Positions 3,322 to 62,300 of a DNA stretch of 64,000 nucleotides are shown here, in pieces. Under the pieces are notes generated by a model. The model was not told the DNA's origin, ran no database searches, and saw nothing but the letters and a program-made list of their open reading frames with translations. The stretch covers positions 3,782,001 through 3,846,000 of the forward strand of contig NC_018014.1 in NCBI RefSeq assembly GCF_000265425.1, read 5' to 3'. The stretch's first letter is position 1, and each line of letters starts with the position of its first letter. The position numbers and the translations under genes were made by a program. The DNA is from Terriglobus roseus DSM 18391. Lineage in GTDB: Bacteria; Acidobacteriota; Terriglobia; Terriglobales; Acidobacteriaceae.

Positions 3322-3363
3322 TTGTGTGCTCAAAGTTGACCGACCTTGCAGCTTGTGTCGCAT

Positions 3364-36543: not shown

Positions 36544-36768
36544 GTGTCGTTTTGCGAATTAAGTGGCCGACTTTTGTGCTAATTATCTGGCACACAGCGA
36601 GCGGTGATGGCGGGAAACCACACGGGTACAAGCGCTTATACAGCAACAGCTTAGCCGTGTTTGGGGCGATATCGCCGCGGAAGGCGTTCGGGGTTGAGGG
36701 TCTTAAAAGCGCGCCAAAGTGCCAAATAGCGCGAACAGAACTTCGCCACTTAATTAGCAAAACAACAC
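36544..36768. mobile_element. 225-bp inverted-repeat element, copy 1
   Basis: The left end reads GTGTCGTTTTGCGAATTAAG from 36544 and is matched at the right end (reverse complement of about 36743-36768) by GTGTTGTTTTGCTAATTAAG. Each end has a second unit about 22-24 bp inside (AATTATCTGGC on the left, GCTATTTGGC on the right), so both ends carry two TGGC units. No gene lies inside. It is homologous in ends to the elements at 43022 and 54947, which fits a non-autonomous mobile element. Confidence 0.7.
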
Positions 36769-36836
36769 CCATGAAGGTAGCAGAGCCGCCGGAACGTCTG
36801 CGAAGCATCGGGTGAGTCCTCTTCGGTTGATTGGGA

Positions 36837-36970
36837 GTGTCACTTTCAGAATTATCTGGCTTAATGTTTCAGCAAGATTGGCGTTTGTTCTGCGACGGCG
36901 GAGCCGGTTCAATGGGCGCAGGAACTTCTACCTCACTGAGGCCAATGTTGAATCAAGAACTTGCAACCAG
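36837..36970. mobile_element. left end of the same element family, truncated
   Basis: GTGTCACTTTCAGAATTATC begins at 36837 and is followed by a second unit AGCAAGATTGGCG. Similarity to the 54947 copy runs on for about 130 bp (GAGCCGGTT, CTTGCAACC). No right end is found before the PQQ-protein gene, so the copy is partial or its partner end lies elsewhere. Confidence 0.6.
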
Positions 36971-37035
36971 CAATACCGATCTGTCGGTTCTGGAACCACG
37001 TTCGCCCGCCATCATGATGGGAGAGCTACGGTCTA

Positions 37036-38580
37036 CTAAGGAATATAAAAGGCATACAGCTTGTTGTTACCTGTTCCTCCAAACCGCTTATAGCCGGATC
37101 CCCAGTAGAGTGTTCCATCGACAATGGCAGGCGCACCAAATACTGATCCCCCGCTTGGGAAAGACCACAGCACCTGACCGGTTGCGGAACTCAACGCATA
37201 CATATATCCCGCCGCATCGAGAGACCCAACATAAACGACCCCGTTCGCAGTGCTCATGGAAGATATAGCTGAAGCGCCATGGGTTGGTTCCGGAGTCTGC
37301 CAGAGAATCTTTCCGGTTTTCATGTCAAGTGCGCTCCAGAATCCCCAATTGATGCTCTGGCCGGAGGCAAGAGTCCATGTGGCCGCTGCGGAGTTCGCCG
37401 AGGCGACAAAGATGCGTGAACCATCGCTGGCAGTGCCCCAAAGAATGCCGCCGAGCTGGCCACCGGGACCTACGGGCACAGACCAGATGTACTTGCCCTT
37501 TGCCGCATCAAACATGTTAAATACTCCGCTCTTCTGGCCAGCTCCAACGACATTGTTGAAGAGGTTTGGGCCGCCGCCGCCGAAGTCGTAGTCGAGGCCC
37601 TGAATGGTGGGGCAGTTGGGGCCGGGCGGAGTGAGATGACAGGCAAGATTGTAAGTGTCATAAACGGAAGGCCTCTGCCACCACACGGGCTCGCCCGTTG
37701 TAAGGTTCAGGGCAACAATCGCGTCAAACATGTCGGAAGCCAAGGCGCATCGCTTGGTGGTGTTATGAGCGGCATTTGCTGCGGCCTGGCAGGCCTGCAC
37801 GCTAGAAGGCACACTGTAATTATTTCCGGTAGTTGTGAAAAGAAGATTGCGGCCAACGTCGATCGCTGGCGGACTCCAGATTGCTGCACCGCTGTACTGA
37901 TTTGGCTGGCCATTGTTGTCAGGCGTCATATAGGTTTGCCACAGCTTGGCACCGGTTGTGGCATTCAGCGCAACTATGCTGCCGCGAAATGTGCAGCAGG
38001 CATAACCCTTCTGTTGGGTTAAACCTTCCTCTTCGGAAGAGATCCCTACGTAAGCAACGTTGTTGTAGACGACGGGAGAGCCGGTGATGATCGCAGCTTT
38101 ATTCGCATCAACCTGCGTAATCCACAGCAGCTTGCCGTCCGCTTGGTTCACGGCGAAGACGTGCGCGCCGGCATGTTTCTCGGTGACCGACAAGTTGTCG
38201 CCGAGAATGATTTCGTTCATGTAGACGGCCGGACTCACCCTAGCAATAGCGTTCGGCATTCCGACGTAGCTTGTAATAGTTTGCTGCCAGATCTTAATAC
38301 CGGTGGTGGCGTTGACGGCATAGAGGTTCCCAGCTGAATCAGGAAAATAGACCACGCCGCCACTCACAGTCGGGGTAGCAGTGACATCTCCGACAGTGGT
38401 AAAAGCCCACTTAACCGCGAGCCTACCCACGTTCAACGCAGAGATGCTCTTCTCTGCGGGCTGTGACCGGAGGTTGGTGAGACCTTGGCCAACGCTGGTC
38501 CACGCTGCGGTTGTCTGCGCGAATGAGGACACTGAAAACACGATAACCGACATGAGTACCGAGAAGAGCGAGCGAAGCAT
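37036..38580 (-). CDS. exported PQQ-binding-like beta-propeller protein
   Basis: A 514-residue periplasmic protein. Signal peptide MLRSLFSVLMSVIVFSVSSF then AQ (start at 38580; an upstream in-frame start at 38637 adds a non-signal stretch). The rest repeats the propeller blade pattern: GGVVYFPDSAGNLYAVNATT, GIKIWQQTITSY, VVALNLTTGEPVWWQRPS, TANGVVYVGSLDAAGYMYAL. Tryptophan-docking motifs are clear, as in the quinoprotein alcohol dehydrogenase superfamily, but the Glu-Asn-Asp metal triad and adjacent Cys pair of true PQQ dehydrogenases are not evident. It may be a PQQ dehydrogenase-like sugar or alcohol oxidase or a scaffold. AAGGTG lies before the ATG, and two inverted repeats lie 150-290 bp upstream. 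Confidence 0.85.
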   Translation of the reverse strand: MLRSLFSVLMSVIVFSVSSFAQTTAAWTSVGQGLTNLRSQPAEKSISALNVGRLAVKWAFTTVGDVTATPTVSGGVVYFPDSAGNLYAVNATTGIKIWQQTITSYVGMPNAIARVSPAVYMNEIILGDNLSVTEKHAGAHVFAVNQADGKLLWITQVDANKAAIITGSPVVYNNVAYVGISSEEEGLTQQKGYACCTFRGSIVALNATTGAKLWQTYMTPDNNGQPNQYSGAAIWSPPAIDVGRNLLFTTTGNNYSVPSSVQACQAAANAAHNTTKRCALASDMFDAIVALNLTTGEPVWWQRPSVYDTYNLACHLTPPGPNCPTIQGLDYDFGGGGPNLFNNVVGAGQKSGVFNMFDAAKGKYIWSVPVGPGGQLGGILWGTASDGSRIFVASANSAAATWTLASGQSINWGFWSALDMKTGKILWQTPEPTHGASAISSMSTANGVVYVGSLDAAGYMYALSSATGQVLWSFPSGGSVFGAPAIVDGTLYWGSGYKRFGGTGNNKLYAFYIP

Positions 38581-38724
38581 GAGGCACACCTTGACTCTTA
38601 CTTTCCAGCTTAGAGGTTGAAACTGAACCCACGGCACTAAAGTGGCTCAGATAGGCAGAGTGACGCGAGGGCATCTGGCGAAACCTTCTCTCAGTCACGG
38701 CGCACGTTGAGCGGACATAAATTC

Positions 38725-38753
38725 CACCAAACACAATGACTAAGTGTTTGGTG
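38725..38753. promoter_or_regulatory. perfect 10-bp inverted repeat, 9-base spacer
   Basis: CACCAAACAC at 38725-38734 and GTGTTTGGTG at 38744-38753, about 145 bp upstream of the PQQ-propeller start. It could be an operator or a hairpin in its leader. Confidence 0.5.
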
Positions 38754-38836
38754 ATGCTCACGATTTCAAGAGAGTGTTGTCAATTAGATCTTAAGCGCAG
38801 AGTGCGTATAACGTTAAAATCAGTGTGTAGCACTTA

Positions 38837-38869
38837 AAGTAACTTGCCGCGTGGTTACGCAAGTTACTT
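38837..38869. promoter_or_regulatory. perfect 11-bp inverted repeat, 11-base spacer
   Basis: AAGTAACTTGC at 38837-38847 and GCAAGTTACTT at 38859-38869. It could be a transcription stop for whatever lies to the right or another operator of the PQQ-propeller gene. Confidence 0.45.
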
Positions 38870-39285
38870 GGTACCGGAAACTACTTAATAAGCGACTGCT
38901 GTTGGTCTACATGCATGGGAATTCTTGCATTGCGCATATGCCCTGAGGTGCTCTTAAGTGCGCTGCCATGCATTACCTGCTTACTCTTCACGGCCACGCG
39001 TTCCCAAATAAACGGGCTTTGGGTGAGATCGCAGGCGCGATAACAGCCATGCCTCAACGGGCGCACTGACATGGCTACGCTATGGCTTTAACTTCGTTGC
39101 GACGGACCAGATTTCCGCGTACTCGATCTCCAGGGTGATTTTGCCGCGTGTGAGCGGAATGAAGTTTAGTGGCGTTGCTTGGGTCGGGCTGCTGCAGGTT
39201 TATGACAGTGTTGTTGACCCGGCCATTGATGAGGCGCGATCGCCCTGCCAGATGACTTCGACGGTGCTCCAGTAACTCTGCCGAA

Positions 39286-39937
39286 GTGAAGCTTGTCAGC
39301 CTACGACCGAAGGCGGGGGCCATCGAGATGCACTTGCGCGCCTGCCGAAGTGACTCAGTCGGTCCAGACTGCAACAGAAGCTCGAGCCGAGTTCATAGCC
39401 GCTATGTTCGCTTCCTTGGCGATCTACCTTGGGAGGGCCTGCCTGTGCGGATCGTGCTCGAGAGCAGGAGGTTCTTCTGCCGGGAGCTGGCATGCGCCCG
39501 CAGGATCTTCACTGAGTCGCTGCCCAGCACGGTGCGCCACTCGCACGCCACAGCGCCCGCTTGAGTGAACCCTCGCACTGGGAACGCTCAGTCTGAGAGG
39601 TGCAGCCGGAGCTCGGCTGGCACACAGGCTGGGCTTACTTGTAAGTGGCTCGAGTCTCCTTCGGCATCTGCGCCGGCGGTCGCGGACAACTCCGTTAGAG
39701 GCGCCTCGCGTGCTGGGCATCGATGACTAGGCCTGGCGTAAGGGCCATCGCTATGGCACGATCCTGTGCGATCTGGAGCAGCGAAGAGTCATTGACCTGC
39801 TGCCGTGTCGTTGTTCTAGTTATTTGGGTTCTGGCGCGCTTTTGGTGAAGCGGGCACGTGAACTCGCGAACGCGTATACCCGCGTTGATGGCTGCAACTC
39901 TGAAGGTGGCGAGATGGGGAGCCACAAGCGCTTCTGA
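39286..39937 (+). pseudogene. ISL3-family transposase relic
   Basis: N-terminal zinc-finger part: RVHSRYVRFLGDLPWEGLPV and RRFFCRELACARRIFTESLP (39380-39530). After a frameshift the sequence continues GAAGARLAHRLGLLVSGSSL, LEAPRVLGIDD, then TAG, then AWRKGHRYGTILCDLEQRRV and IDLLPC. VLGIDDWAWRKG is the ISL3 DDE motif region, with the Trp codon now a stop (TGG to TAG). The C-terminal half is lost. It is a dead insertion sequence, and no clear terminal repeats remain. Confidence 0.85.
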
Positions 39938-40342
39938 TCCGAACCATGACCTCACGCAGGCTCAGTTCGCTCAGGCGATTGCTGGTCAGTAACAGTCCTG
40001 GTTACCTGGCGCCGGTCTCTGAACCAGTTGTAAATGCAATTTCTATTGAGCTGGTGCTTTGGTTTGGAGATGAGATCAGGGCCATGGCCCTGATCTCATC
40101 TCGGCCGTTTGGATTCCTGTACATCACTGGTAATTCCAGTGAGTTATGGGCCGCTCTACAGTACTCCTGCTCGCATTCTGCCAGCTTCTGACGCACCTCG
40201 TTTAGAGTGCGAAACCAGCTGGGTGGAGGCACTCATAACGCAGCCGGACGTGGAAGCTCCCGAGTAGCTATCGTTTGCTAAGAAAATCGGCCTCACCGAT
40301 CACGATGTCCTGGGCTCGGGCGAGGCCGTTGGCCTACTACTG
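39938..40342. other. 400-bp stretch between the ISL3 relic and the FG-GAP gene
   Basis: No gene is supported; frames on both strands at 40000-40230 exist only because of the long palindrome at 40067-40102, which has its own entry. Confidence 0.45.
40067..40102. repeat. perfect 36-bp palindrome without spacer
   Basis: GAGATGAGATCAGGGCCA at 40067-40084 is followed directly by its exact reverse complement at 40085-40102. It lies between the ISL3 relic and the FG-GAP gene end. It could be a strong bidirectional transcription stop, a recombination site or a leftover of element insertion. Confidence 0.7.
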
Positions 40343-42109
40343 TCACTGTCCCTGCAACTGCGCTGTGCTCGAAGTACTCGGGTTGTAAGGAGCAGCAGGC
40401 GAGCTTGCCGCCTGCACGGAATGCGTTCCGGGGCCGGTGACGGATACGCCGGTGAGCACCGCCTGCGCAGTTTGTGTTGGTTTATCTAAAAGCACGCCAG
40501 GCCCCACAAGCAGATCCGGATTGCCGTCACCGTTCATATCAGCGCTCAGGATGCTGGCGTAATACTGCCCGCCAGCGTATGGCTTTGCGAGCGGAAGTAT
40601 TGTTGACGTGAAGGTGCCCTGTCCGGTTCCAAACAGCACCGTTTGGTAGCCGATTCCCTCGTACGTCGAGCTGGTGGCTACGGCGATATCTTCTAAGCCA
40701 TCCTGGTTGAGATCGGTCAATGCCAATGCATTGGGCTGAGTCGCGCCGTCAAATGGAATGGAGGCAGCAGCGGTGAACGATCCATTTCCGTTGCCGAGTA
40801 GAACGGAAACCGCGTAGTTCACTTGGCTTGCCACGGCTAGATCAACTTTTCCGTCCGCGTTGAAATCCCCACCAATCATCTGCGTGGCATTCGCGACTGC
40901 TGTCAATCCAGCGCTGGTAAATGTCGCACCAGCCGATCCAAGAAGGACCTCGATCGAGTTATCTTCGGCTGCTGCCAGGTCCTGAATACTATCGCCATTC
41001 ACGTCGGCAACGACCAGACTGATTGCAGCACTCGCCAGTGGTGCAACCTTCCTACGGAAGGTTCCATCGCCCTGCCCAATGAAAAGCGAAACCGCGCTCA
41101 CGCCATTACTCGTTGTCGCTAAGTCTGCTATGCCGTCCCGATTGAAATCACCGACCGCGATGGTGTTCGTATAAGCCACACCAGGATAGGCTACAGCTGT
41201 CTGGAATGTTCCATCCCCTTCACCCAAAAGGATGATGAGTTTGGCATCCGTATAGCTTGTCGCCGCAATGTCCTGGAAGCCATCTCCGTTGAAGTCACCT
41301 ACCGCAAAGGTATTGACAGAGTAGCCGACCGGGAAATTGACCGCCCGTACCGGGAACCCACCGGTTCCATCGCCGAGCACCACGCCCACGCTATTGTTTA
41401 ATCCGACACCGGCAAGGTCAGGAATTCCGTCATCGTTAAAGTCACCCACTGTGTAATTGGCAGGCAGATTGACACTATTCGGAGCGACGATTAGGGATAG
41501 ACCCGGGGTGCTGCTTCCAAGTGAACTTACTCCCAGTTGCGTCGGCTGCGGTTGACTCGTGGTCAGATCTGTAAAGAAGACATTCCCTGTGAGTGCTGCC
41601 GCAGAACCGGTTCCGACCACCGTGGCCGTGAGTGTGTAGTTGCCCGGAGAGCCGGTAGCCACTAGCGTCGTCTTCGTCGGGAACTTGCCGTTGACAGTCA
41701 ACATTTCGTTGGAAGAAACACTGGGTTGAAACTGTTTGACCACTCCCAGGAACTCCGCTCGGTATGCCCGTGAGCCAGGGCCGGGAACGATGCTCAGGGT
41801 GGCCGTGCCCGAGGGTGTTAGCTGTGCGACTCCCAACAGGTGTAGATCAGTGCATCTCGGTGCAGACGCGTCGCAAAATCGAACCTGGCCGGTTGTAAGC
41901 GGCGCCGTCGAACTTTGCACCTGTGCAACGAGTTGGACTGAAGTCTGTTTGGGAACCCTGTTCACTAGAGCGCCGCTTGATTTCACCGAAAGCAGAGTAC
42001 TGGTTGGCACCGCTGATTGGGCATAAGCAATCGTTGAGCTACCTGCGGCGCAGGCGGCCGCCACAACCGCCAAAGCTACTGGCATGGAAAAGACTTTACG
42101 AGCAAGCAT
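40343..42109 (-). CDS. exported FG-GAP/VCBS-repeat protein with Ig-like domain
   Basis: A 588-residue secreted protein. Signal peptide from ATG 42109 (MLARKVFSMPVALAVVAAAC, ending AYAQ). An Ig-like region about 35-165 (TTGQVRFCDASAPRCTDLHL, SGTATLSIVPGPGSRAYRAE) is followed by at least six FG-GAP/VCBS repeats with calcium-type loops: VGDFNDDGIPDLAG, VGDFNGDGFQDIAA, VGDFNRDGIADLAT, GGDFNADGKVDLAV, LTDLNQDGLEDIAV, SADMNGDGNPDLLV. These build an integrin-like beta propeller used in adhesion or polymer binding. Acidobacteriota encode many. AGGA precedes the ATG. Confidence 0.85.
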   Translation of the reverse strand: MLARKVFSMPVALAVVAAACAAGSSTIAYAQSAVPTSTLLSVKSSGALVNRVPKQTSVQLVAQVQSSTAPLTTGQVRFCDASAPRCTDLHLLGVAQLTPSGTATLSIVPGPGSRAYRAEFLGVVKQFQPSVSSNEMLTVNGKFPTKTTLVATGSPGNYTLTATVVGTGSAAALTGNVFFTDLTTSQPQPTQLGVSSLGSSTPGLSLIVAPNSVNLPANYTVGDFNDDGIPDLAGVGLNNSVGVVLGDGTGGFPVRAVNFPVGYSVNTFAVGDFNGDGFQDIAATSYTDAKLIILLGEGDGTFQTAVAYPGVAYTNTIAVGDFNRDGIADLATTSNGVSAVSLFIGQGDGTFRRKVAPLASAAISLVVADVNGDSIQDLAAAEDNSIEVLLGSAGATFTSAGLTAVANATQMIGGDFNADGKVDLAVASQVNYAVSVLLGNGNGSFTAAASIPFDGATQPNALALTDLNQDGLEDIAVATSSTYEGIGYQTVLFGTGQGTFTSTILPLAKPYAGGQYYASILSADMNGDGNPDLLVGPGVLLDKPTQTAQAVLTGVSVTGPGTHSVQAASSPAAPYNPSTSSTAQLQGQ

Positions 42110-42328
42110 GAGAGGGTCCTGGGACAACGTGAATGAAGCGTTTAGACACTACAAACGTTCTTATGTCACAACGAAAACTGTTCCCGCGCGACGAGCATGG
42201 TGATGCCTTCAAGAATGGGTCCTGAGCATGAGTTGCGTGACTATAACAGCAGTATTCCTTCAAACGCCATGGAGTGTCTGGAAATGACACCGCTCTTTCG
42301 GTCCTCTCTGCCTGGTTTAACCAAGTTC

Positions 42329-42916
42329 TCACAACGCGGCTGACCTGATCTGGAAAAGGTCCTCCTTCATGTCGGCCAGCCGCTTCGCTTCGTGCTGCGC
42401 ATCCATCAAGGCTTTGCGTTGGTCCAACAACATCGAAACTTGGCGAGCAAGCGACTCCAGGGCGGCTAGTTGCTTAAGTGACAGTGTTCTTGGAACGGTG
42501 TCAATCACGCACACCGTTCCAAGAACATAACCGTCCTGGACTATGGGAGCGCCAGCGTAGAACCGGATGTTTGGATTGCCCAGGACCAGTGGATTATCGC
42601 GAAAGCGCGGATCCGTCCGCGCATCTTCTACGACAAGTGTTTCTCTCGTTGATATCGTATTGGCGCAAAAGCTTTGTGTTCGCGGGGTCTCTCGTGCACC
42701 CAATCCAACTTCAGACTTGAACCATTGCCGCTGTTCATCGACGAAGGAGATCAGCGAAATCGGAGTACCGCAGATGAAAGACGCAAGCGCCGTCACATCC
42801 TCATAGCCCTGCTCCGGGAGTGAGTCGAGGACCGCAAAGCTCCGTAATTTCTCAAGTCGAGCCAGTTCTTGGTCGAGCTGCGGCTCTTCTGCAGGAAGCA
42901 CAGTCGATTTTCTCAC
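42329..42916 (-). CDS. stand-alone GAF-domain protein
   Basis: A 195-residue soluble protein with one GAF domain: ARLEKLRSFAVLDSLPEQGY, TALASFICGTPISLISFVDE, RQWFKSEVGLGARETPRTQS, FYAGAPIVQDGYVLGTVCVI. This N-terminal type normally precedes a kinase or GGDEF domain in signalling proteins. Here the chain stops shortly after the coiled segment (HEAKRLADMKEDLFQIRS), so it is either a genuine single-domain sensor or a C-terminally truncated sensor. A perfect 17-bp inverted repeat lies inside the coding sequence at 42485-42527. Start ATG 42916. Confidence 0.8.
   Translation of the reverse strand: MRKSTVLPAEEPQLDQELARLEKLRSFAVLDSLPEQGYEDVTALASFICGTPISLISFVDEQRQWFKSEVGLGARETPRTQSFCANTISTRETLVVEDARTDPRFRDNPLVLGNPNIRFYAGAPIVQDGYVLGTVCVIDTVPRTLSLKQLAALESLARQVSMLLDQRKALMDAQHEAKRLADMKEDLFQIRSAAL
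42485..42527. repeat. perfect 17-bp inverted repeat inside the GAF gene
   Basis: TGTTCTTGGAACGGTGT at 42485-42501 is the exact reverse complement of 42511-42527, with a nine-base loop. It covers the codons for the conserved GAF strand VLGTVCVID and the VPRTL turn. Confidence 0.65.
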
Positions 42917-43021
42917 GTCTTAAATGACCTCTCTGCCTACCGTTACTGCCTCGCCCAAAATCCACGGCTTGCGAGTCAGCTACGACGACGGCGCTCGAGT
43001 GAAGACTCTGCGGATCTTGAA

Positions 43022-43259
43022 ATGTCGCTTTGAGCGATATTTGGCGTAGACCTTTGAGCGATAACTGGCGTAAGGAGCCGTCGGAGGCGACCCTGCACCA
43101 TCCATCTGAGTCTGTGCTCGATCAGCAGAATTAGAGCTGGTTGCAGGCATCCGGAAGGGGCTCGAGCTTGATTGACAGTTCACCTCAGCGATGAGACGGG
43201 ATGAACCTTGCGCCAGAAAGCTCCCAAGAAGTTACGCCACTTTGCGATCCAAACAACAC
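43022..43259. mobile_element. 238-bp inverted-repeat element, copy 2
   Basis: The left end has two tandem units: TGTCGCTTTGAGCGATATTT-GGCG (43023-43046) and CTTTGAGCGATAACTGGCG (43052-43070). The right end, read on the minus strand from 43259, is GTGTTGTTTGGATCGCAAAG then GTGGCG and, 22 bp on, a second unit ending CTGGCGCA. No gene lies inside. Ends and size match the copies at 36544 and 54947. Confidence 0.65.
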
Positions 43260-43648
43260 ACAGGGCGAGTGGTAAACGCCTCTCGCCTCCCTTTCTCAAG
43301 TTTTGAAGGAGGTCTGCCCCTGTCTCCGGAATGCGCCGGCAAGAAGCACCGGGCCATTCTTCCGCCACCCCCCTCTGCGGGGACACCCCGCAACGCCCCA
43401 AGAGCAATTCCCGCGCTACGCGCCGAGCTAGGTAACCAAACCTGCTGTGGGACTCCGTCCCTGGCGCGCGCAAGCTGATGGAAAAAGCTCCGTGCAGCTC
43501 CAGGTGTTCGCTTCCTCCGTGCCTCCGGCATGCCCTTACGGGCACTTTTCCGCACAGCCTGCACTTGCCGCCCCTGCTGGCGTGGGCCAGGGCCAAGGCG
43601 TGTTTGAAAGCAAACACAGCACAGCCATTCAAAACGGAGAAGCCCACC
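43260..43648. other. leader region upstream of the ArdC fragment
   Basis: This GC-rich stretch carries small hairpins (TGCCC-TTAC-GGGCA near 43530 and TGTTTG-AAAG-CAAACA near 43600) typical of long leaders of plasmid genes. No gene is supported in it. Confidence 0.4.
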
Positions 43649-43912
43649 ATGACCAGCAACGCAACCGCAAACAACGTCACCACCCTTCCCTCCACACCGA
43701 ATCCCCAGACCTCCAAGGAAGTGATCGCCGCCAACGTTCAGCTCCTCATCGAGCAGCTTGAGGCAGGACACTCCGAAGGCCTCACCGCCTACCTCACCGC
43801 CATGGGCAGGTTTCATAACTACAGCTTCGGCAACATCCTTGAGATCGCACGACAGATGCCCGAGGCGACCCGCGTTGCAGGCCTCTATGCGTGGAACCAG
43901 CTTGGACGTTGC
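43649..43912 (+). pseudogene. N-terminal fragment of an ArdC-type antirestriction gene
   Basis: From ATG 43649 (GGAG upstream) the frame reads VIAANVQLLIEQLEAGHSEG, LTAYLTAMGRFHNYSFGNIL and EIARQMPEATRVAGLYAWNQ then LGR. This is the single-strand-DNA-binding N-terminal domain of ArdC, a protein that protects incoming plasmid DNA. After LGR the similarity stops abruptly at about 43912, exactly where the acyltransferase fragment ends on the other strand. The metallopeptidase half is gone, so this is a recombination junction. Confidence 0.75.
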
Positions 43913-43913
43913 C

Positions 43914-44161
43914 GTTATAAGGAAGCCGGAGACCGCGAAGAACATCTGCACCCCATACTGTCCGTTCCACACAAGGGAGGAAACCACCTGACGTGGGAGA
44001 CCCTGCGTGTACGGCACGCGCGCGAACAGAAGCTGCATGTTCACGTGGTTCATCAACACGAAGAAGATCGCGAGGCCCCGAATAAGGTCGACCCCATCCA
44101 CCCTGTTCCAGCTCTTGGTCTCGGTGTTGCTGCGCTCCAGAGACAGGAAACACCATCGCAT
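43914..44161 (-). pseudogene. N-terminal fragment of an acyltransferase-3 (OafA-like) gene
   Basis: On the minus strand from ATG 44161: NRVDGVDLIRGLAIFFVLMN, HVNMQLLFARVPYTQGLPRQ, VVSSLVWNGQYGVQMFFAVS then GFLITATS. This is the first two membrane helices of an acyltransferase-3 protein with its conserved R..DG..G.AI..V..NH motif. It breaks off at about 43914 against the ArdC fragment and the frame then runs on into antisense ArdC sequence. Confidence 0.75.
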
Positions 44162-44230
44162 CTCGGGATCATGAAAGCCAACCCTGGGCATTTGCGAGAG
44201 TTGGTACATAGCCTTGACCCCTATTACGTC

Positions 44231-44264
44231 AATGCGCATTTCCGCATATTTTTGCTATGCGCAT
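44231..44264. repeat. doubled ATGCGCAT motif, copy 1
   Basis: TACGTCAATGCGCATT around 44226-44240 and ATGCGCAT at 44257-44264, followed by CGATACTGTCGTTC and GCGACAGCGAT. The copy at 56984 has the same layout. It lies about 190 bp before the hypothetical gene at 44455. Confidence 0.55.
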
Positions 44265-44366
44265 TTCAACAATTCGATACTGTCGTTCAATGCGACAGCG
44301 ATGTCCTGCTCCGATCCTAGGCAGCGCTCCGTCGTCTGGGACCATGGGCCTGTTACCTCGCGAGGC

Positions 44367-44432
44367 AGCAAACCGCAGCCGTTGCGCCAAATCGCTCTGG
44401 AAGACAGAGCAAAGTAATAATCGAAGCTGAAC
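44367..44432. mobile_element. right end of the 230-bp element family, partial
   Basis: GCAAACCGCAGCCGTTGCGC (from about 44371) through AATAATCGAAGC (44417-44428) matches the right end of the 54947 element nearly base for base. No matching left end is found 230 bp upstream; the nearest upstream ends are at 36837 and 43022. Confidence 0.55.
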
Positions 44433-44454
44433 CTTGACCTCTAAACTGGTTCCG

Positions 44455-46180: not shown

Positions 46181-46208
46181 ATTGCTCATCTTTGGTACTC
46201 GCATCCCT

Positions 46209-47447: not shown

Positions 47448-47693
47448 ATGACTATCGCTCATAACAGACAACCCAGAACGTTCCTACTGCTCGCACTCAC
47501 AATGTGCAGCGTGGCCGCGGCTGCGGGCTTTGGCATCAAGGCTCACGCCACACACGCAATAGTCCGACCACAGACTTGCGTAGGTGCTGGCCACGAAACA
47601 CCAACCGGTGGCTGTTATGCCAACTCGTCGCATACTGGCAGCCAATGCGGCGCTGACGGAACGTGGGAACCCGGCACTGGCGACTGCTTCTAG
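47448..47693 (+). CDS. small secreted cysteine-rich protein
   Basis: An 81-residue exported protein. Signal peptide within residues 1-34 (RTFLLLALTMCSVAAAAGFG, then KAHA-T). The 38-residue mature core has four cysteines: CVGAGHETPTGGCYANSSHT, GSQCGADGTWEPGTGDCF. The spacing suits two disulfides. GGGAG precedes the ATG. It is followed by a membrane-anchored thioredoxin-like gene, a natural helper for disulfide formation. No known family; possibly a toxin, a signal or an envelope protein. Confidence 0.65.
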   Translation: MTIAHNRQPRTFLLLALTMCSVAAAAGFGIKAHATHAIVRPQTCVGAGHETPTGGCYANSSHTGSQCGADGTWEPGTGDCF

Positions 47694-47799
47694 TGATAGA
47701 AGACCACTGCTGAGCGACAAGCGCTGTTCACTACAGTGGACTCGCTTGTCGCTTTGCAGCCGGACGCAGTGCTACATCAGCCGAAGCATGGAAGAAACA

Positions 47800-48375
47800 A
47801 TGTCGAAACTGTTGAACAAGCGGGCATTACTAGGAGCTCTCCCTACAGTTCTCCTCGCCGCATCATTGATGCTCAATCTCGCTCAGTATTGGAACAGCAC
47901 TAGTAAAGCAAGCAGCTCACGCGTGACGACGCAGGTCCTACCGGCGGTAGGACAAGAATTAGCCTCACTGCACGTCATTACTTCTGACGGTCGTGCGATC
48001 TCATTGCCTCTGAGGACCTCTGGCAAGCAAACAGTTCTATACGTCCTCTCACCAACGTGCAAATGGTGCAAGCTGAATCAGAAAACAATTAACTCTCTAT
48101 CGCAGCAATCAAATGGGCGCTTTCAAGTGATTGGCTTGATGGCGCAGAAGGCAGATAGTGAGTCAAAAAAGGTTCTGAGTTCCTATGCTTTCCCCGTCTA
48201 CACCGTAGACGCGACCGTTCCATATCAAGGTGTGCCGCTCGATGTAACTCCCCGGACCTTTGTCGTATCCCCAAGTGGCCATGTCGCCAAAAGGTGGGAG
48301 GGCGCCTACAGCGATGTCACGCTTCAAGCGATCGCTGCTTTCCTCCACGTAGAATTACCGCAGCCTCATGATTAA
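47800..48375 (+). CDS. membrane-anchored thioredoxin-like protein (TlpA/ResA-like)
   Basis: A 191-residue protein. One N-terminal membrane helix (LLGALPTVLLAASLMLNLAQ) anchors a periplasmic thioredoxin fold with the active-site motif CKWC in VLYVLSPTCKWCKLNQKTIN and the cis-proline region TPRTFVVSPSGHVAKRWEG. This resembles the TlpA/ResA/DsbE group that reduces or forms disulfides in the periplasm. GGAAG lies before ATG 47800; an in-frame ATG at 47788 is an alternative. It lies between a Cys-rich secreted protein and a TIGR03435 protein. Confidence 0.82.
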   Translation: MSKLLNKRALLGALPTVLLAASLMLNLAQYWNSTSKASSSRVTTQVLPAVGQELASLHVITSDGRAISLPLRTSGKQTVLYVLSPTCKWCKLNQKTINSLSQQSNGRFQVIGLMAQKADSESKKVLSSYAFPVYTVDATVPYQGVPLDVTPRTFVVSPSGHVAKRWEGAYSDVTLQAIAAFLHVELPQPHD

Positions 48376-48445
48376 CCCTCTGCTGATACTTTGGAGCAAA
48401 GCTTAGAAAGCGTTCTTTTCTCTTCGGTTTACAGGCCGCCACTCA

Positions 48446-49228
48446 ATGCGTCTTCTTTCCGTCTTGTTCTTCAGTTGTCTGTTATCACAATGTGTCGCTC
48501 AAAGTACTGAAGGCACACTGCCAAATGAACTGAGGGATTTCCCTGTATCCATCGTCAAACCGAATGTGAGAAATGATGGCAGATGGCGTGCTCAGTTTGT
48601 CGCCACTGGATATACCGCTATGGGAGTGACGCTTAAGCAGATCATCCAGGATGCGTATTTTGTTTATGACGAATCTCGACTCGAGGGTCTGCCAAAGTGG
48701 GCAAGTACAGAAAAGTTGGACCTCGATGCGCGCGTTGACACGGAACAGTTAGCGACCTTCGAAAAGCTGAGTACAGAGCAAAAGCAATTACTTCTACAGC
48801 GTCTTCTGCATCAAAGATTCGGACTTCAAGCCGGCTTTGAAAAAAAGGCTGGTCGTCAGTACGTTCTGACGATCGCAAAGGGTGGGGCGAAACTGAAGCG
48901 GTCAGCCCAAGCAGTAAACGAAAGCAATGAAAAAGGTCTATGGCCAAGCCTAAGACCCGGGAAGATGGTAGCTTCGCATGTTCCCATGGGGGAGTTTGCA
49001 AGATCTCTCGGTCTAGTACTTGGCCGCCCCACAATTGATAGGACCGGATTGAACGATCATTTTGATATTGCGCTTGAGTGGCAGCCTGATCTCGATAGCG
49101 CAGGGGAGACGTCTGGGCCTTCTGTATTTTCGGCGTTGAAGGATCAGCTCGGACTCGAATTAAGGCTCGATAAGGCGGCAACAGATGTGCTCGTCGTTAC
49201 GGCAGTTGAACACCCCCAGAGCAACTGA
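48446..49228 (+). CDS. secreted TIGR03435-family protein
   Basis: A 260-residue exported protein with signal peptide MRLLSVLFFSCLLSQCVAQ. The family core is intact: VTLKQIIQDAYFVYDESRLE, LPKWASTEKLDLDARVDTEQ, LLLQRLLHQRFGLQAGFEKK, YVLTIAKGGAKLKRS, LGRPTIDRTGLNDHFDIALE and FSALKDQLGLELRLDKAATD. TIGR03435 was defined from soil Acidobacteria, where many copies exist. It is thought to resemble secretin/TonB-like short domains, but its role is unknown. It follows the thioredoxin-like gene in the same direction by 71 bp. Confidence 0.88.
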   Translation: MRLLSVLFFSCLLSQCVAQSTEGTLPNELRDFPVSIVKPNVRNDGRWRAQFVATGYTAMGVTLKQIIQDAYFVYDESRLEGLPKWASTEKLDLDARVDTEQLATFEKLSTEQKQLLLQRLLHQRFGLQAGFEKKAGRQYVLTIAKGGAKLKRSAQAVNESNEKGLWPSLRPGKMVASHVPMGEFARSLGLVLGRPTIDRTGLNDHFDIALEWQPDLDSAGETSGPSVFSALKDQLGLELRLDKAATDVLVVTAVEHPQSN

Positions 49229-49385
49229 GCATCTTTACTAGGTCCGCAACAGCCAACCTACCGATAAAGGCTGAGTACTATCAGTATCAACACATCAAAT
49301 GAAAGTGTCGAAACACTATCCAGACGGGAACAGCACAAGGAATCGCGCAGCGGCAGCGATGAGTCAAAACACCCGAGGATCGCGA

Positions 49386-50213
49386 CTAAGCCTTTACAAA
49401 CCAGTCTGCGAGAGCGGTCAAATCATCCTGCGCGTACTCGCTATTGGTTGTGTAGTTTAAAGTCGAACGAGACGGGGGAGGACGAAATAGTGACGCCGCG
49501 GGCGAGAGTGAAAGATGCTCGATTCCCGAAACCGTTTCGTTTCCTTCCGTATCTCCATCAATAACCTTCACGACCAGGCGCATCTCCAATGAAATCCATA
49601 CTTCGTGGAATGTAATTTTCGGGCCGTCAGCTGAGGCACCGCTACATGTGACAGTTCTAAACCCAGTCACATGGATGCCCTGAATAGTGGCCTCTCCCAG
49701 ATCTTGCGTAAACACGCCATGCTCGAGATCAGTGTTGAACTTGCGCGGTCGCAAAGCGGAGGTGAGGCGTTGGGCATCGGCGAGTTGAGCCGTGCTTAGG
49801 CTTATCTGTATCGCCTGCGATGTGTTCCCTAATGGCCCTTCTCCCCAGTGCCATATCGAACCGACCTTTGGATCAAAAACAAACTGTCGCCAGTAATCGC
49901 AGGGCGGCAGCGTGCCATACTCTGGAACGTCGCATTGTTGGTCAAAGGGCTGCGCTCCGATCATGGTGACTGTCCCATCCGCGTCACGAGCTAATAGGAC
50001 GTGTCCCATTTCCTGAATAAGGGTTTGCTTACCTTTGCCGTCGAGATGTACTCTTCGGGCGAACTTCAAAGCAGAAAATGGGCGACCCTGCACTATCGCG
50101 GGCGGCGAGAGATCAGGATCGGTCGATCCAGGTCCGTCAGCATTTGCCCTCTTGGAAACCGTTACGCAGCAAGTCAGGAGTAGTCCTCCGACAGCTACCC
50201 TTAAATGCTTCAT
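49386..50213 (-). CDS. secreted hypothetical protein
   Basis: A 275-residue exported protein, start ATG 50213 after GGAGGGAG. Signal peptide MKHLRVAVGGLLLTCCVTVS. The mature chain is beta-rich with no cofactor motif: PFSALKFARRVHLDGKGKQT, DYWRQFVFDPKVGSIWHWGE, KITFHEVWISLEMRLVVKVI, and ends LSLSPAASLFRPPPS. I recall this end (HEVW.S..L.LVVKV..GDT.G...SGIEHLSL...LF.PP) in acidobacterial secreted proteins of unknown role. It stands alone. Confidence 0.72.
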   Translation of the reverse strand: MKHLRVAVGGLLLTCCVTVSKRANADGPGSTDPDLSPPAIVQGRPFSALKFARRVHLDGKGKQTLIQEMGHVLLARDADGTVTMIGAQPFDQQCDVPEYGTLPPCDYWRQFVFDPKVGSIWHWGEGPLGNTSQAIQISLSTAQLADAQRLTSALRPRKFNTDLEHGVFTQDLGEATIQGIHVTGFRTVTCSGASADGPKITFHEVWISLEMRLVVKVIDGDTEGNETVSGIEHLSLSPAASLFRPPPSRSTLNYTTNSEYAQDDLTALADWFVKA

Positions 50214-50317
50214 AGAAGTTCTCCCTCCAGAACGCGCCAGCATTACTTGTGCAAATCGCTACAGCCTTCGATCGCTGCCCGTGCCTATATCACGTTACCG
50301 CGTTTAGGACTAAGTTG

Positions 50318-51070
50318 TCAGTCTAGCGAAAAGCAGAGGCCCTGCACCTCCCCAACCTGATCCATAGCTCTTTGTTGTTGCAGAGGGCCTTGGCTGTGGA
50401 ACTGTTGCCAGTCATGGAACGTTTGACCGTCCGCCTTTTGCAAGGTCGTCATCTCTGCGCTGAACTCCGCTTTCGCGATGGCGCAGCCATCGTGGCTTGC
50501 CTCTGCCCGCTTCAAAGCGCTTCCCGCTGGGCTGTCTAGGGTGGAATGCCACTCGGCTGGGTAGCGCTGCTCTATCTGCTTTTCCCAGAGGGAGAAGGTA
50601 GCTGGCATGTCTGCGGCTCCGTCCAAGACGATCAGCTTCTCAACATGCTCGGGGTAGCGTGACGCATATTCCAACGCGATAGTACCGCCGAAACTGTGGC
50701 CCATCAGCGAAAGCTTTTGGATGCCCAAGCTCCTCCTCAGAGCTTCAACGTCCTGCACCAGCGTGGTCATGGCGTAATCGCGGTTCACCGGCCGTTCACT
50801 ACGACCAGAGCCGCGCTCATCAAGATAGATGATCTGTACATGCCCTTCGAGCTGTGCACCGATCGTTTTCTCGAAGCTGTAGCTGTTGTACCCAGCCCCA
50901 CCATGCAAAAAGAGCGCAGGCGACTTGGCCCGACGCCTTTGACCCGCAACTTTGAACCAAAGCTTAACCCCATTGATCGTCGCTTGATGCTCTCCAGCAG
51001 GAAGCGAAACCTGACCAAATGAGCAGGCCGAGGAGCACAGGACGGACGCAAGCGTTAGCTTCAGCAGCAT
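50318..51070 (-). CDS. exported alpha/beta hydrolase, probably truncated
   Basis: A 250-residue hydrolase with signal peptide MLLKLTLASVLCSSACSFGQ (start 51070; an upstream start at 51106 is less likely). The fold is clear: ALFLHGGAGYNSYSF (oxyanion loop), YLDERGSGRSERPVNRDYAM, nucleophile in KLSLMGHSFGGTIALEYAS and acidic strand KLIVLDGAA. It resembles proline-iminopeptidase-type hydrolases (300-330 residues), but it ends at VQGLCFSLD, before the strand that should bring the catalytic histidine. The gene may be frameshifted or inactive. Confidence 0.75.
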   Translation of the reverse strand: MLLKLTLASVLCSSACSFGQVSLPAGEHQATINGVKLWFKVAGQRRRAKSPALFLHGGAGYNSYSFEKTIGAQLEGHVQIIYLDERGSGRSERPVNRDYAMTTLVQDVEALRRSLGIQKLSLMGHSFGGTIALEYASRYPEHVEKLIVLDGAADMPATFSLWEKQIEQRYPAEWHSTLDSPAGSALKRAEASHDGCAIAKAEFSAEMTTLQKADGQTFHDWQQFHSQGPLQQQRAMDQVGEVQGLCFSLD

Positions 51071-51337
51071 TGCTCTAATGTACGAAGGTCTGCAAGCGAG
51101 TTCCACCCGGTTGCGGTCGTGTCTACTAGTCCAGAGAAGAGCCGTTGTTGAAAGTCCGAACGCCTGGGCTCGCTCCGTTCCCTAACTGACGGGATGCGAC
51201 TTGGTGTGCCTCAAGGGCGTTGGAAGCGTAGGTGTCTTTCTTTAGGGCCAATCGCCGATGCGGACACCACTGAGGCGCCGCTTGTTCGCGACTGATACCC
51301 TGCCAATGACATCAGCTCGCCGCGTCTTGGAGCAGGA

Positions 51338-52999
51338 ATGCGTTTTCGTGGTCGGACTGCTCTAATTGCAGCGTCACTGTGGTGGGCATGGAGCGCACTC
51401 TGCTATGCCCAATGCCGTTTTAAGCCCAGTGCTCATCGTCAGGTTACATACACCTTCCGACCTGAGATTTCTGCAACAGGCCTCATACTTCACACCGTTC
51501 TAGAATTCGAAGTCGGCAGGACCGGCACAGAAGTCCTGGCACTGCCGATGGGATGGGCAGGTGAGAAGCTCCAGTCCATGACCGAACTCCAAGCCGCCTC
51601 ATCCGAGGCGGTCCTAGTTGAGGGGTCGGATCCAAGTCAGCGCGTGATCCACGCATATCCCGGACGTAGCGTGAGGGTCACCTACGACCTTACGAGAGAT
51701 TGGACCGGAACCTTTAAACATCCCCTGCAGTTCCATCCCGTTCTGGATCCCGAGTACCTAGAGTTCACTGGAAGCAACGGTCTCGTGCGCCTTGGTCTCG
51801 GAAACGACGAGATTGAGACAGCGCACTTTGATTGGAGTGCATTGCCTCGGGGCTGGGTGCTTGCAACAAGCTTCGGCAGCTCCCGCTCGTCCTCCGGTCT
51901 TTGCCAAACGAAGACAGCACCATGGCGCGATATACACGGCGCGCTCTACGCTGCAGGAGACTTCCGTCTGCACGACTTCTCCATCAACGGTAAACCGGCC
52001 CTGTTAGCCATTCGAGGTGCTTGGCAGTTCTCAGATGAAGACGCTGTCTCAGACATTCGGGACGTTGTTGGGATGGTACGACGCTTCTGGCATGATGACC
52101 ACTTCCCTTCGTTCCTGGTCACTCTCGCCCCCTACGATCAGGATCACGGTAGCAGTGATGGCAGTGCATTCACAGACGCATTCTGGATGTTCGTCTCCAA
52201 GCGCGACCAGATCAAAGGTTTGCTTCCGCAACTAGCGCATGAGTCTTTCCATGCCTGGAATCCTAAGCGGATGGGACGCATCCCCGTGGGCTACGATGAG
52301 CGCAACATCAGGTGGTTTGACGAGGGTACGACGGAGTACTACGCTCAGCTGCTCACCCTGCGGGCCGGGGCTATGACGTCCACTGCGTACATCTCCTCAC
52401 TGAACAAAGACCTCCGGCGCTTTCCAACGAGCACAGACGAATACATCCGTGGGCGAGTGATCTCACTTTGGCTCGACGGAACCATCCGGGACGAATCGCA
52501 TAATAAACATTCCTTGGACGATGTCATGTTCGACATGGTCAAAGGTGCCTCCAGGCCTTTAACGTTTGAGCGCCTGCTGGCCACCATCGACAAGTACCTC
52601 TCGCCCTCCTCTCAAGCGCTGCTGCAGCAGGCCGTGGTCGATTACGGAATGCTGCCGGCGCCAGCTCGAATCCCTCGGCAGGAGTCTTGTGGCAAGGCAG
52701 CGGTGGAATCCCTGCCGGCTTACGAGCTCGGTTTCGATCTAAAGATGTCCTCCTCCACCATGACGGTCGCGGGCGTTGCTGATGGTGGTCCCGCCTTCCT
52801 TGCCGGACTCCGCAATGGTCAAAAGCTTCTGGGGTTCTCAGTGCGGAACGGCGACACCGACCATTTAGCCACCTTCCGGGTCAGCACCGACTCGGGAGAT
52901 AAGCGTTTGAGCTACTACCCTCGGGGCTCGTCGGTGGAAGTCTGGCAATACACGGCTACATCAGACAACTGCTTAGGAAGCCTTGAGACGCGCCCCTGA
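51338..52999 (+). CDS. M61-family (glycyl aminopeptidase-like) metallopeptidase with PDZ domain
   Basis: A 553-residue secreted peptidase. Signal peptide MRFRGRTALIAASLWWAWSA-LCYA. Zinc site HESFH at 301-305 followed by Glu329 in WFDEGTTEYYAQL, the HExxH...E gluzincin arrangement. The substrate-binding N-terminal beta part (YTFRPEISATGLILHTVLEF) and the C-terminal PDZ-like domain (VADGGPAFLAGLRNGQKLLG) match the M61 family. It likely cleaves peptides starting with glycine or similar. GGAGCAGGA precedes the ATG. Confidence 0.9.
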   Translation: MRFRGRTALIAASLWWAWSALCYAQCRFKPSAHRQVTYTFRPEISATGLILHTVLEFEVGRTGTEVLALPMGWAGEKLQSMTELQAASSEAVLVEGSDPSQRVIHAYPGRSVRVTYDLTRDWTGTFKHPLQFHPVLDPEYLEFTGSNGLVRLGLGNDEIETAHFDWSALPRGWVLATSFGSSRSSSGLCQTKTAPWRDIHGALYAAGDFRLHDFSINGKPALLAIRGAWQFSDEDAVSDIRDVVGMVRRFWHDDHFPSFLVTLAPYDQDHGSSDGSAFTDAFWMFVSKRDQIKGLLPQLAHESFHAWNPKRMGRIPVGYDERNIRWFDEGTTEYYAQLLTLRAGAMTSTAYISSLNKDLRRFPTSTDEYIRGRVISLWLDGTIRDESHNKHSLDDVMFDMVKGASRPLTFERLLATIDKYLSPSSQALLQQAVVDYGMLPAPARIPRQESCGKAAVESLPAYELGFDLKMSSSTMTVAGVADGGPAFLAGLRNGQKLLGFSVRNGDTDHLATFRVSTDSGDKRLSYYPRGSSVEVWQYTATSDNCLGSLETRP

Positions 53000-53211
53000 A
53001 CGGCCTCGTTTTCCGTCGCGACTTATATGCCGCGATCAGTGGACCCTCGGTACCTGGGTAATGGCGGCCGCTTCGCTCTGTTGACCGAAGCCCGACAATT
53101 CTAGTGGCTTTACAGTACGAAGGTCCTGAGAAACGTCGTCAGCGAAAGTCGACCAGATCTCCAATCGCCCGGATGGCTCCGCTCCGAAATTGACGAGAAT
53201 TCTACTTCTCG

Positions 53212-53712
53212 TTACCGGCGCCTGCTCGCACTATCGACTGGCATGAGAGCGTTTGGCGCTACACGACAAACGCTTCCCGGTGTTTGAGACCACACTTCGC
53301 CGTCAAGGTAGGTCACCTTCTCCAGCTGAATCCACCGGACACCAGTCAAGTGGCGTGTGTACACCATCGCCTCGGCACCCGGAAGCGTAAATCTCTCCGA
53401 AATCAGGTCCCCGCGATCGCCATCCGACGCTCTTAGCATGGAAGCCTCGTCGATACCGATCAGCTTCACCTGAGCGCTTCTCACTAGTTTGCCATCCGAT
53501 GTGAGCAGGGCGATCTTGTATGCCAGTCTGTCATGCAAGCGTGCGTTGGTATCCCGATCCACGCTCCGGAGCGCGGGGAGGGTGCGAGGAGAGGCCTCAA
53601 CACCCACGGGGCAGCTAGTGCTTTGTCCTAGCCGGAGAATGGCTTGATCGTTACGCTGCGCCATCAGAGCAGGAGCTAGGATTACGGCTGCGAAAGTGAG
53701 AAGTGAGCGCAT
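53212..53712 (-). CDS. secreted hypothetical protein
   Basis: A 166-residue protein with signal peptide MRSLLTFAAVILAPALMAQ and GGAGG before the ATG. The mature part has no recognisable domain: AYKIALLTSDGKLVRSAQVK, ERFTLPGAEAMVYTRHLTGV, LEKVTYLDGEVWSQTPG. Two Cys (SCPVGVE, GSVCRVA) could form one disulfide. It stands alone and faces away from the peptidase gene. Confidence 0.65.
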   Translation of the reverse strand: MRSLLTFAAVILAPALMAQRNDQAILRLGQSTSCPVGVEASPRTLPALRSVDRDTNARLHDRLAYKIALLTSDGKLVRSAQVKLIGIDEASMLRASDGDRGDLISERFTLPGAEAMVYTRHLTGVRWIQLEKVTYLDGEVWSQTPGSVCRVAPNALMPVDSASRRR

Positions 53713-53801
53713 CGGTGGCCTCCGTTTCTGGGAAAATCATACTCCAGGACAAGAAATGAGGAACGCCGTTGTCGTCACCTGCGCACCCTCATTCCCGTAG
53801 G

Positions 53802-53819
53802 GTCGGATTTCGGAAACTG
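53802..53819 (-). repeat. GTTTCCGAAA-type repeat, reverse orientation
   Basis: On the minus strand GCAGTTTCCGAAATCCGAC resembles the repeats at 35873 and 36276 (GTTTCCGAAAAC.CGAC). It lies between two minus-strand genes, just after the stop of the DoxX-like gene. Confidence 0.45.
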
Positions 53820-53857
53820 CCACCCCAACGGAGTTGTTCTGGGTGTGATTCTCGCTG

Positions 53858-54880
53858 TTACCGATTAAAGGGATTCTCCTGGACCCAGTGAAAGCCGCGC
53901 TGAGTCAGCAGATGCTTTTGCTGGGGCACGGGATCAGTCCACCATGCATGGTAGTTATTGCTGATAGTCGTGTAAAAGAGCGACGCGATGACCAAAGCCT
54001 GCAGAACGTAACCAGCGATGCGGAGCCGATGGCGTTCTGGTTTCGGCACGGTAGGCGTTCTGAGAGGAACAGCGCGATGTTGGATGAACACGCTCCAGAG
54101 CCGACCCATATCGGGGAGCAACAGAAACATGCTCAGTACGAGCAGCGTTGAAGAAAAGAGTTTGACTGGAACGTCGTAACAGAAATTCAGGGCTACAACG
54201 TTCAGGAATACGGCGACGGAGATCAAGGCTCCCAGGGTGGCCGTGCGGCGAAAGAGCAACAGGATGCCAGGAATCACCTCAGCCACACCGGACAATACCG
54301 TGTATGGAATTGAGTACCCCATGAAAGTCCAAAGCAAGCCCATAGGGGAAAAGTCACCCAAGCGTTCATTTAACGTGTTCAGGCCTGGCGGACTGAACTG
54401 CGCATCGAAGACTTTGCTGAACCCATACCCAAGCAAGGTGGCGGCGAGAGAAATCCGAAGGGCGAGGTGCAGGTAAGCAAAGAGGGTTCGATACTCCTGC
54501 CGCACACCGCGGACCGATGCAACGGTCGTCCAAACGACACAGCCGAGCCAAGAAACGAGCACGAGAGCAAGCATGCCGATCCAAGCAAGGGCAGTATCAC
54601 CCGATCCAGTTTGGTGAGCCACTGCGGCGACGCCGGCCAGGTGGAACACGTGATGCGCCAGCAAGCTTGTGAGCGCCTGAACAGGCCAGGTCAAGATGCG
54701 GACAGGCCATGGCAGGAGCCAGTGCTGCAGCAAGGGAGCAAACGCCGTGATCGCCAAGAGCACACCGCTTCGTAGAAGGAAGCCAACCCAGAACAAAGCC
54801 ACGAAGCGAAAGGCCACTCGTTTCCAATGTGGCCAGACTTCTGCAGTGATTACGTTTCTATTCTCTGGAGGGCCGGTCAT
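53858..54880 (-). CDS. DoxX-like membrane protein
   Basis: A 340-residue integral membrane protein with about eight hydrophobic spans, such as LFWVGFLLRSGVLLAITAFA, LAWIGMLALVLVSWLGCVVW, YTVLSGVAEVIPGILLLFRR, GALISVAVFLNVVALNFCYD, LVLSMFLLLPDMGRLWSVFI. YGFSKVFDAQFSPPGLNTLN and PYTVLSGVAEVIPGILLLFR recall DoxX-like/DoxD proteins but are longer. It may take part in quinone or thiosulfate-linked electron transfer or membrane stress. ATG 54880 is given; a GTG at 54892 is the alternative. Confidence 0.75.
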   Translation of the reverse strand: MTGPPENRNVITAEVWPHWKRVAFRFVALFWVGFLLRSGVLLAITAFAPLLQHWLLPWPVRILTWPVQALTSLLAHHVFHLAGVAAVAHQTGSGDTALAWIGMLALVLVSWLGCVVWTTVASVRGVRQEYRTLFAYLHLALRISLAATLLGYGFSKVFDAQFSPPGLNTLNERLGDFSPMGLLWTFMGYSIPYTVLSGVAEVIPGILLLFRRTATLGALISVAVFLNVVALNFCYDVPVKLFSSTLLVLSMFLLLPDMGRLWSVFIQHRAVPLRTPTVPKPERHRLRIAGYVLQALVIASLFYTTISNNYHAWWTDPVPQQKHLLTQRGFHWVQENPFNR

Positions 54881-54946
54881 GTACGGAACCACTATAAGGG
54901 CTACGATTTGGGGCCGTCTATTCCGAATTGCATATTGTGGTACTGG

Positions 54947-55176
54947 TTGTCACTTTCAGAATTATGTGGCGTAATGTTTCAGCATTATCTGCCGTATGTT
55001 CGGCGACGGCCGAGCCGGTTTGACGGGCGTAGGGGCTTCTGTCTTGGCGAGCCAACCGTCGAACAACAACTTGCAACCCACGGGCACCACCGGTCCGTGC
55101 CTTCTCAAGCGGCAAACCGCAGCCGTTGCGCCAAATAGCGCTGAAAGACCGCGCCAAGTAATTATCGAAGCTACAC
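54947..55176. mobile_element. 230-bp inverted-repeat element, copy 3
   Basis: The left end has TTGTCACTTTCAGAATTATG then TGGCGTAATG, with a second unit ATTATCTGCCG; the right end read on the minus strand from 55176 is GTGTAGCTTCGATAATTACT-TGGCG with a second unit GCGCTATTTGGCG 22 bp inside. About 18 of 27 terminal bases match between the ends. No gene lies inside. It lies between the DoxX-like and TPR genes. Confidence 0.7.
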
Positions 55177-62269: not shown

Positions 62270-62300
62270 ATGCGAATCCATTATTCCAGCAATGCGCATC
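62270..62300. repeat. doubled ATGCGCAT-like motif, degenerate copy 4
   Basis: ATGCGAATCC near 62270 and AATGCGCATC at 62291-62300. It is weaker than the other three copies and lies 90 bp from the 3' end of the minus-strand membrane gene. Confidence 0.35.

Follow-up and report, generated by a model that had tools for sequence, protein, structure and literature searches.

What moves the short, gene-less elements that recur in the chromosome of Terriglobus roseus DSM 18391? The question arises from a 64,000-nucleotide stretch of this single-contig genome of 5,227,858 bp (C1:3782001-3846000, hereafter the window), in which a preliminary description had recorded a family of elements of about 230 bp with two-unit inverted ends, and had suggested that they may be passive elements moved by a recombinase encoded elsewhere. 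Comparison with other bacteria indicates that these host elements are very probably non-autonomous miniature derivatives of Tn552/Tn7-type transposons, which encode the DDE transposase TniA, the ATPase TniB and a serine or tyrosine resolvase. The preliminary description was right that the elements are gene-less, share a common end plan and must move in trans, but the tyrosine recombinase that it favoured as the mover is not supported.

The host elements and their end classes

Three complete and two half copies with inverted two-unit ends are indeed present in the window, the true termini of the complete ones lying one base inside those first described. Each end starts with TGT, has a 23-base first unit ending in TGGC and carries a second TGGC 23–24 bp further inward. 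The two units of about 23 bp at each end are putative TniA binding sites, and TGT...ACA would be the transposon tips. Ends were sorted for this work, by their sequence, into five classes: class A (54948 type), class B (36545 type), class C (type of the copy at C1:1308450, near B), class D (TGTAGTTTGAG..., with TGTCG units) and class E (43023 type). The element pieces in the window are listed below, “pattern” denoting the one-unit sequence TGTNRNTTTNNNNNTTANNTGGC.

36545..36767, + strand: B1, a complete mini-element of 223 bp; each end has an inner unit behind its outer sequence, TGTCGTTTTGCGAATTAAGTGGC on the left and TGTTGTTTTGCTAATTAAGTGGC on the right
36838..36968, + strand: class A half element (A2, left side), 79% identical to 54948-55078; its outer unit is an exact pattern match
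39806..39826, + strand: class B/C-type left-end fragment TGTCGTTGTTCTAGTTATTTG, with an ISL3-type end GGTTCTGG directly after it; 2 mismatches to the pattern, weaker than the other ends
43023..43258, + strand: complete mini-element E1, 236 bp
44365..44428, + strand: class A half element (A2, right side), with 88% identity to the corresponding part of 54948-55175
54948..55175, + strand: complete mini-element A1, 228 bp

The fragment at 39806 was missing from the preliminary listing. The half copies at 36838-36968 and 44365-44428, 7.4 kb apart, resemble the two sides of a single 54948-type element. In none of the host copies was a gene recognised, a search for TniA and TniB giving nothing better than an expect value (E) of 0.23, and the gene frames entering A1 were examined and led to nothing.

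In all three complete elements, local alignment of the two 50-bp ends scores higher than for any of 1000 dinucleotide shuffles. Between elements the likeness is uneven: among the 21 pairs formed by seven ends, 11 had no shuffle in 1000 reaching the score, while in the remaining 10 some did (762 of 1000 in the worst). A position weight matrix scan scored six window ends at 32.9–54.3, left the half copy at 36838 unlisted and gave one more weak match, 16.7 at 63305; nothing in 20 mononucleotide shuffles reached 14, a partly circular control, as the matrix was trained on these ends.

A genome-wide search for the end motifs, as the preliminary description had proposed, revealed further host copies. 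With at most one mismatch, the pattern occurs at 15 places in the host genome (11 of them exact, and 14 of the 15 within 3,733,090-3,854,369), against one for the reversed-pattern control; from this difference and the shuffle scores, chance can be rejected. Inspection of stretches gave the following additional complete copies.

C1:1308450-1308648: complete copy, class C
C1:3733090-3733207: complete but shorter copy of 118 bp, class A relative
C1:3755149-3755368: complete copy
C1:3757448-3759355: complete copy interrupted by an ISL3-type insertion sequence (IS)
C1:3766053-3766261: complete copy
C1:3848982-3849194: complete copy
C1:3854150-3854369: complete copy (B3), 91% identical to B1 along its full length

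The copies D1 and D2 are 94% identical throughout, and a left half related to class A lies at C1:3637612. Outside the host (loci are numbered with L), an element in L081, a lichen-associated Acidobacteriaceae metagenome-assembled genome, shares 80% identity with B1; the 1.4-kb flanks of this element matched the searched host stretches in only one segment, of 107 bp and distant from the B copies. A DNA search of 398 genomes with the whole B3 element found full-length copies in the host only. The class B two-unit pattern occurs in 6 of 398 family genomes (control 0), and 2 of 200 carry the A-type end, the host being included in both counts. Because no TniA was found in the host genome (0 matches to the TniA of L098, described below, at E 0.001, and 0 to the rve model) and the patterns occur in few family genomes, the host copies look like orphans. 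A 255-bp element with class A-like ends was also seen in another genus of the family (G072:C1:2903612; L048:3113-3367). Of 86 distinct ends, 36 have C as the base immediately beyond the tip (p 9e-5), a weak signal since the ends are related and the p value is consequently too small.

Transposons bounded by the same ends

A degenerate two-unit pattern, run once over a public genome collection, returned 42 loci, some sharing a genome: 26 in Acidobacteriota, 8 in Enterococcus, Staphylococcus or Mammaliicoccus, 3 cyanobacterial and 5 others. In 19 of them TniA, TniB, a serine resolvase or a cyanobacterial TnsAB homologue, or a remnant, lies on the element side of the end (one weak, outward-pointing match in L090 was excluded); the remaining 23 lacked any match of this kind, some of them being mini-elements or cut by a contig end. 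At 8 of the 42 loci the TniA match starts 27–39 bp inside the tip, which speaks against the suggestion that paired TGGC sites betray a tyrosine recombinase more than a DDE transposase. In Enterococcus, loci L086 and L115 hold both a serine resolvase and TniA inside a two-unit end. In relatives of the host elements (L098, L087, L120, L121, L162 and L197), rather than in the host itself, the same ends bound elements coding for a transposase with rve and Mu-transpos_C domains and an AAA ATPase.

Genes of the tni type lie inside relatives of every end class. For class A they are found in L087, L098, L120, L121 and others. Class B/C left ends with TniA N-termini occur in L164 and L166 (of the host's genus) and weakly in L165 (E 6e-4), and in L162 a TniB fragment precedes a class B-type right end. 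In the class D relatives L125 and L202, TniA lies inside the TGTGGTTTGAGGAATTATTTGTCG end. For class E, TniB in Granulicella L198 precedes a matching right end, at L198:4853, from which the right outer unit of E1 differs by eye at 3 of its 23 bases. Judged by their sequences, the host's end classes, at least five, appear to correspond to five transposon lineages present whole or in part in other bacteria. One miniature form retains coding sequence: the 310-bp Edaphobacter mini-element L112:7600-7909 carries a stretch of 40 TniB codons close to the right end (E 2.7e-15) and, because these remain, is by its sequence an internal-deletion derivative. The same search of 18 other element pieces gave no match better than E 0.23, and these are linked to tni transposons through their ends. 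Taken together, the tni genes inside relatives of all five classes and the TniB codons of L112 argue for TniA/TniB derivatives and against tyrosine-recombinase elements. The mini-elements may have been copied in trans by the TniA and TniB of intact relatives, tniA and tniB having since been lost, or never kept, by the host.

Longer copies with recombinase-type genes, for which the preliminary description had advised searching, do exist in other bacteria. An example is L098, in which a complete element of 3993 bp (1711-5703) holds TniA, TniB and a serine resolvase between inverted two-unit ends and is flanked by an 8-bp target-site duplication, GGTTCGGG. Its transposase contains rve and Mu-transpos_C, its second protein AAA_22 and its third a serine resolvase domain. 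The best match of the transposase in PDB is the TnsB structure 7svw (E 1.6e-52), Tn7 TnsB being far weaker (E 1.3e-6). Comparison with plasmid proteins covered 40 of 4621 records, spread over the ranking, and among the matches listed L098 TniA was closest to a Scytonema protein (55%), while acidobacterial TniA was 42–44% identical over 87–99% to enterococcal and staphylococcal plasmid proteins flanked by a recombinase, and about 25–27% identical to enterobacterial relatives.

These comparisons place the elements among known systems. Tn552 is a staphylococcal transposon with the p480 transposase, the p271 ATPase and a resolvase. Among the matches listed, the acidobacterial TniA is closer to staphylococcal and enterococcal than to enterobacterial proteins; the records do not name Tn552, which the staphylococcal matches presumably represent. 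Unlike Tn552, which is a full transposon with cargo, the host elements measure 118–236 bp, are gene-less and lack duplications. Passages of PMC8649781 describe arrays of transposase-binding repeats of about 20 bp as the end plan of Tn7, Tn5053 and Tn552, so that paired repeats are also the published plan of DDE elements; the host elements have such ends, with TGT...ACA tips and at least two repeats of about 20 bp per end. Tn5053/Tn402 shares the TniA-TniB-resolvase design and, according to the same passages, a replicative cointegrate pathway, although its TniA is more distant. Between its two-unit ends L162 has a gene set resembling that of clades 2 and 3 of the Tn7-like transposons in those passages, which carry a tyrosine resolvase. 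TniQ was not noticed among the open reading frames (ORFs) of L098 or L162, no TniQ model search having been made.

Missing duplications and exact junctions

Several results weigh against descent from TniA/TniB transposons. Since no such transposase was found in the host, present mobility is unsupported. Coding sequence of tni type is kept in only 1 of 19 tested element pieces, the rest being linked by ends alone, and no autonomous element was found with both ends nearly identical to those of a host element. A target-site duplication, which the preliminary description had proposed to check, was seen at none of 19 mini-elements when at least 4 bp was required, nor did any share a 5-mer within 10 bp; this set includes distant elements (L108 and L116, outside Acidobacteriota) and two with a tip departing from TGT. 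Such an absence is unexpected for simple transposition, and only one of three full-length elements has a duplication of that size (8 bp in L098, none in L087, 2 bp in L162). Finally, the outward flanks of 26 host ends yielded two complementary 5-6-mers against 0.3 expected for 5-mers, too few to pair inversion products.

Homology to a truncated recombinase gene stops one base before the element at 3755148/3755149, 3757447/3757448 and 3854149/3854150, and in Edaphobacter L084 protein homology begins 3 bp from the tip, nucleotide homology being detected only 64 bp in. An ISL3 transposase gene remnant stops at most 5 bp from the tip at L079:17649, and another shares 7 bp with the end fragment at window 39806. 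Tips also abut truncated sister elements of another class, at L077:262/351, L119:5022/5081, L122:4494/4579, L047:9549/9664 and L162:5188/5183. The notion that only L ends abut truncated genes was dropped, six cases being too few. The remnant bordering the fragment at 39806 is the following.

39275..39812, + strand: ISL3-type transposase gene remnant, amino acids 9-187 in two pieces (tblastn with the L047 ISL3 transposase)

End-anchored deletions are a known outcome of replicative transposition within one molecule. If the mini-elements moved replicatively within the chromosome, the resulting deletions would remove duplications and truncate neighbouring genes, and we infer that tip-anchored deletions of this kind explain both the missing duplications and the cut flanks. 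The view put forward in passages of PMC8649781, that resolvase-bearing clades lacking TnsA move via a cointegrate, fits this mechanism. It is tentatively proposed, as a possibility somewhat short of even, that the resolvase-less mini-elements act as deletion makers, each replicative move fixing one tip, deleting or swapping the sequence beyond it and leaving no duplication. Repeated, this process would build islands of half genes and half elements joined at their tips, like the region at 3.73-3.85 Mb.

The main alternative to this deletion mechanism accepts TniA-type derivatives and ascribes the missing duplications and truncated flanks to RecA recombination between dispersed copies instead of transposition in cis. 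Copies of one class are up to 91–94% identical over 210–223 bp (B1/B3 and D1/D2) and the region holds other duplications, both of which would suit RecA; such exchange, however, neither needs nor predicts that the tip of one element should exactly meet a truncated element of a second class, which is what the five sister junctions above show, and it is judged unlikely, though worth serious consideration.

As TniA/TniB derivatives, the host elements also invite comparison with miniature inverted-repeat transposable elements (MITEs) and with TIMEs, the latter being miniature elements of other transposon families. They are alike in being short, non-coding and present in several copies, in having inverted ends shared with autonomous transposons and in having spread between genera (L081); they differ in their TniA/TniB parentage and in the flanking duplication, absent in 19 of 19, because of which they are called MITE-like mini-elements rather than filed as strict MITEs. 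Passages of PMC3934969 describe a MITE of 439 bp surrounding a Tn402-like integron; it has direct repeats of 5 bp, and its termini are said to be unlike any known element. A search of a partial literature collection found no report of miniature derivatives of the Tn552/Tn5053/Tn7-like (TniA/TniB) superfamily. The mini-elements would accordingly extend MITE-like elements to the superfamily that includes CRISPR-associated transposons, and would illustrate how Tn552/Tn7-type transposons shrink and appear to break up the surrounding genome. Their end sequences would predict which TniA serves which mini-element, while the missing duplications and exact junctions offer a testable case for resolvase-less replicative elements that reshape genomic islands by deletion.

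Recombinases and insertion sequences beside the ends

A tyrosine recombinase encoded elsewhere, with the paired units as its binding arms, is a highly improbable mover, although an association does exist. The host has a XerC/D-like recombinase of 312 amino acids in two intact and several broken copies, lying beside many ends. It adjoins the right end in three cases: in L162, where TniA, TniB and the recombinase lie between two-unit ends and the recombinase, placed between TniB and the right end, gives a match starting 64 bp inside; in L198, with the same 64 bp and without an adjoining TniB; and in host locus L080, where a broken copy begins 72 bp inside. The lack of target-site duplications in the mini-elements would also suit such a mover. 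Among 30 recombinase loci of the family, taken with 1.5-kb flanks, however, none had TniA, TniB or TniR, none had an end just upstream of the gene, and only two (L170 and L181) had any end at all; elements that code for TniA are bounded by these ends in phyla whose loci showed no such recombinase, and the ends start with TGT and have long two-unit repeats like those of DDE elements of this superfamily. An element of the RIT type or similar was rejected on the same upstream count and because intact copies code for TniA and TniB. Since the recombinase stands beside TniA and TniB in the sole complete case, L162, and tyrosine resolvases are reported from clades of Tn7-like transposons (passages of PMC8649781), it reads as the resolvase of one branch and not as a transposase. 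That one branch has a tyrosine recombinase inside the element, beside the right end, is a point in favour of the preliminary description.

The window also holds pieces of this recombinase family. A further short fragment of the gene lies at 62298-62343, with no element end found beside it, and the piece next to the right half of A2 is given here.

44269..44339, - strand: 3' fragment of the 312-amino-acid tyrosine recombinase family, about amino acids 290-312

A repeated module made up of a gene for 158 amino acids and the 3' end of the recombinase gene occurs at C1:3756774-3757447 and C1:3853213-3853886 with 93% identity; a mini-element truncates each module, and the two mini-elements belong to different classes.

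That the ends belong to IS21-family elements (istA/istB) can be set aside as barely conceivable: IS21 occurs widely in the family (above the cut-off in 46 of 200 genomes) and its ends also start with TGT and can hold repeated units, but among 30 IS21 loci inspected by eye the one-unit pattern appeared in only 4 and the paired unit in none, the transposase inside matching ends scored 19.5 bits on the IS21 model against a cut-off of 160, and no istA or istB lay between these ends in the loci examined. An IstB match above the cut-off at C1:3913259 falls in an ORF that looks to us like a helicase-loader gene rather than an IS gene, and the position, ends and 8-bp duplication of a 526-amino-acid frame weakly matching IS21 mark it as an ISL3-type transposase.

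ISL3-type ISs sit inside the outer unit of the ends at three places, C1:3757448-3759355 (L047:7449-9356), window 39806-39833 and L181:979. They follow ATTATCTG or TTATTTG, with ATTATCTG as an 8-bp duplication in the host case, and the ISL3 end GGTTCTG lies at the same point of the unit in all three. Among other genes of the window, the ORF at 43478-44320 resembles by eye the N-terminal part of an ArdC-type antirestriction protein, with no Pfam match at E 0.001, and a DUF3738 gene is present.

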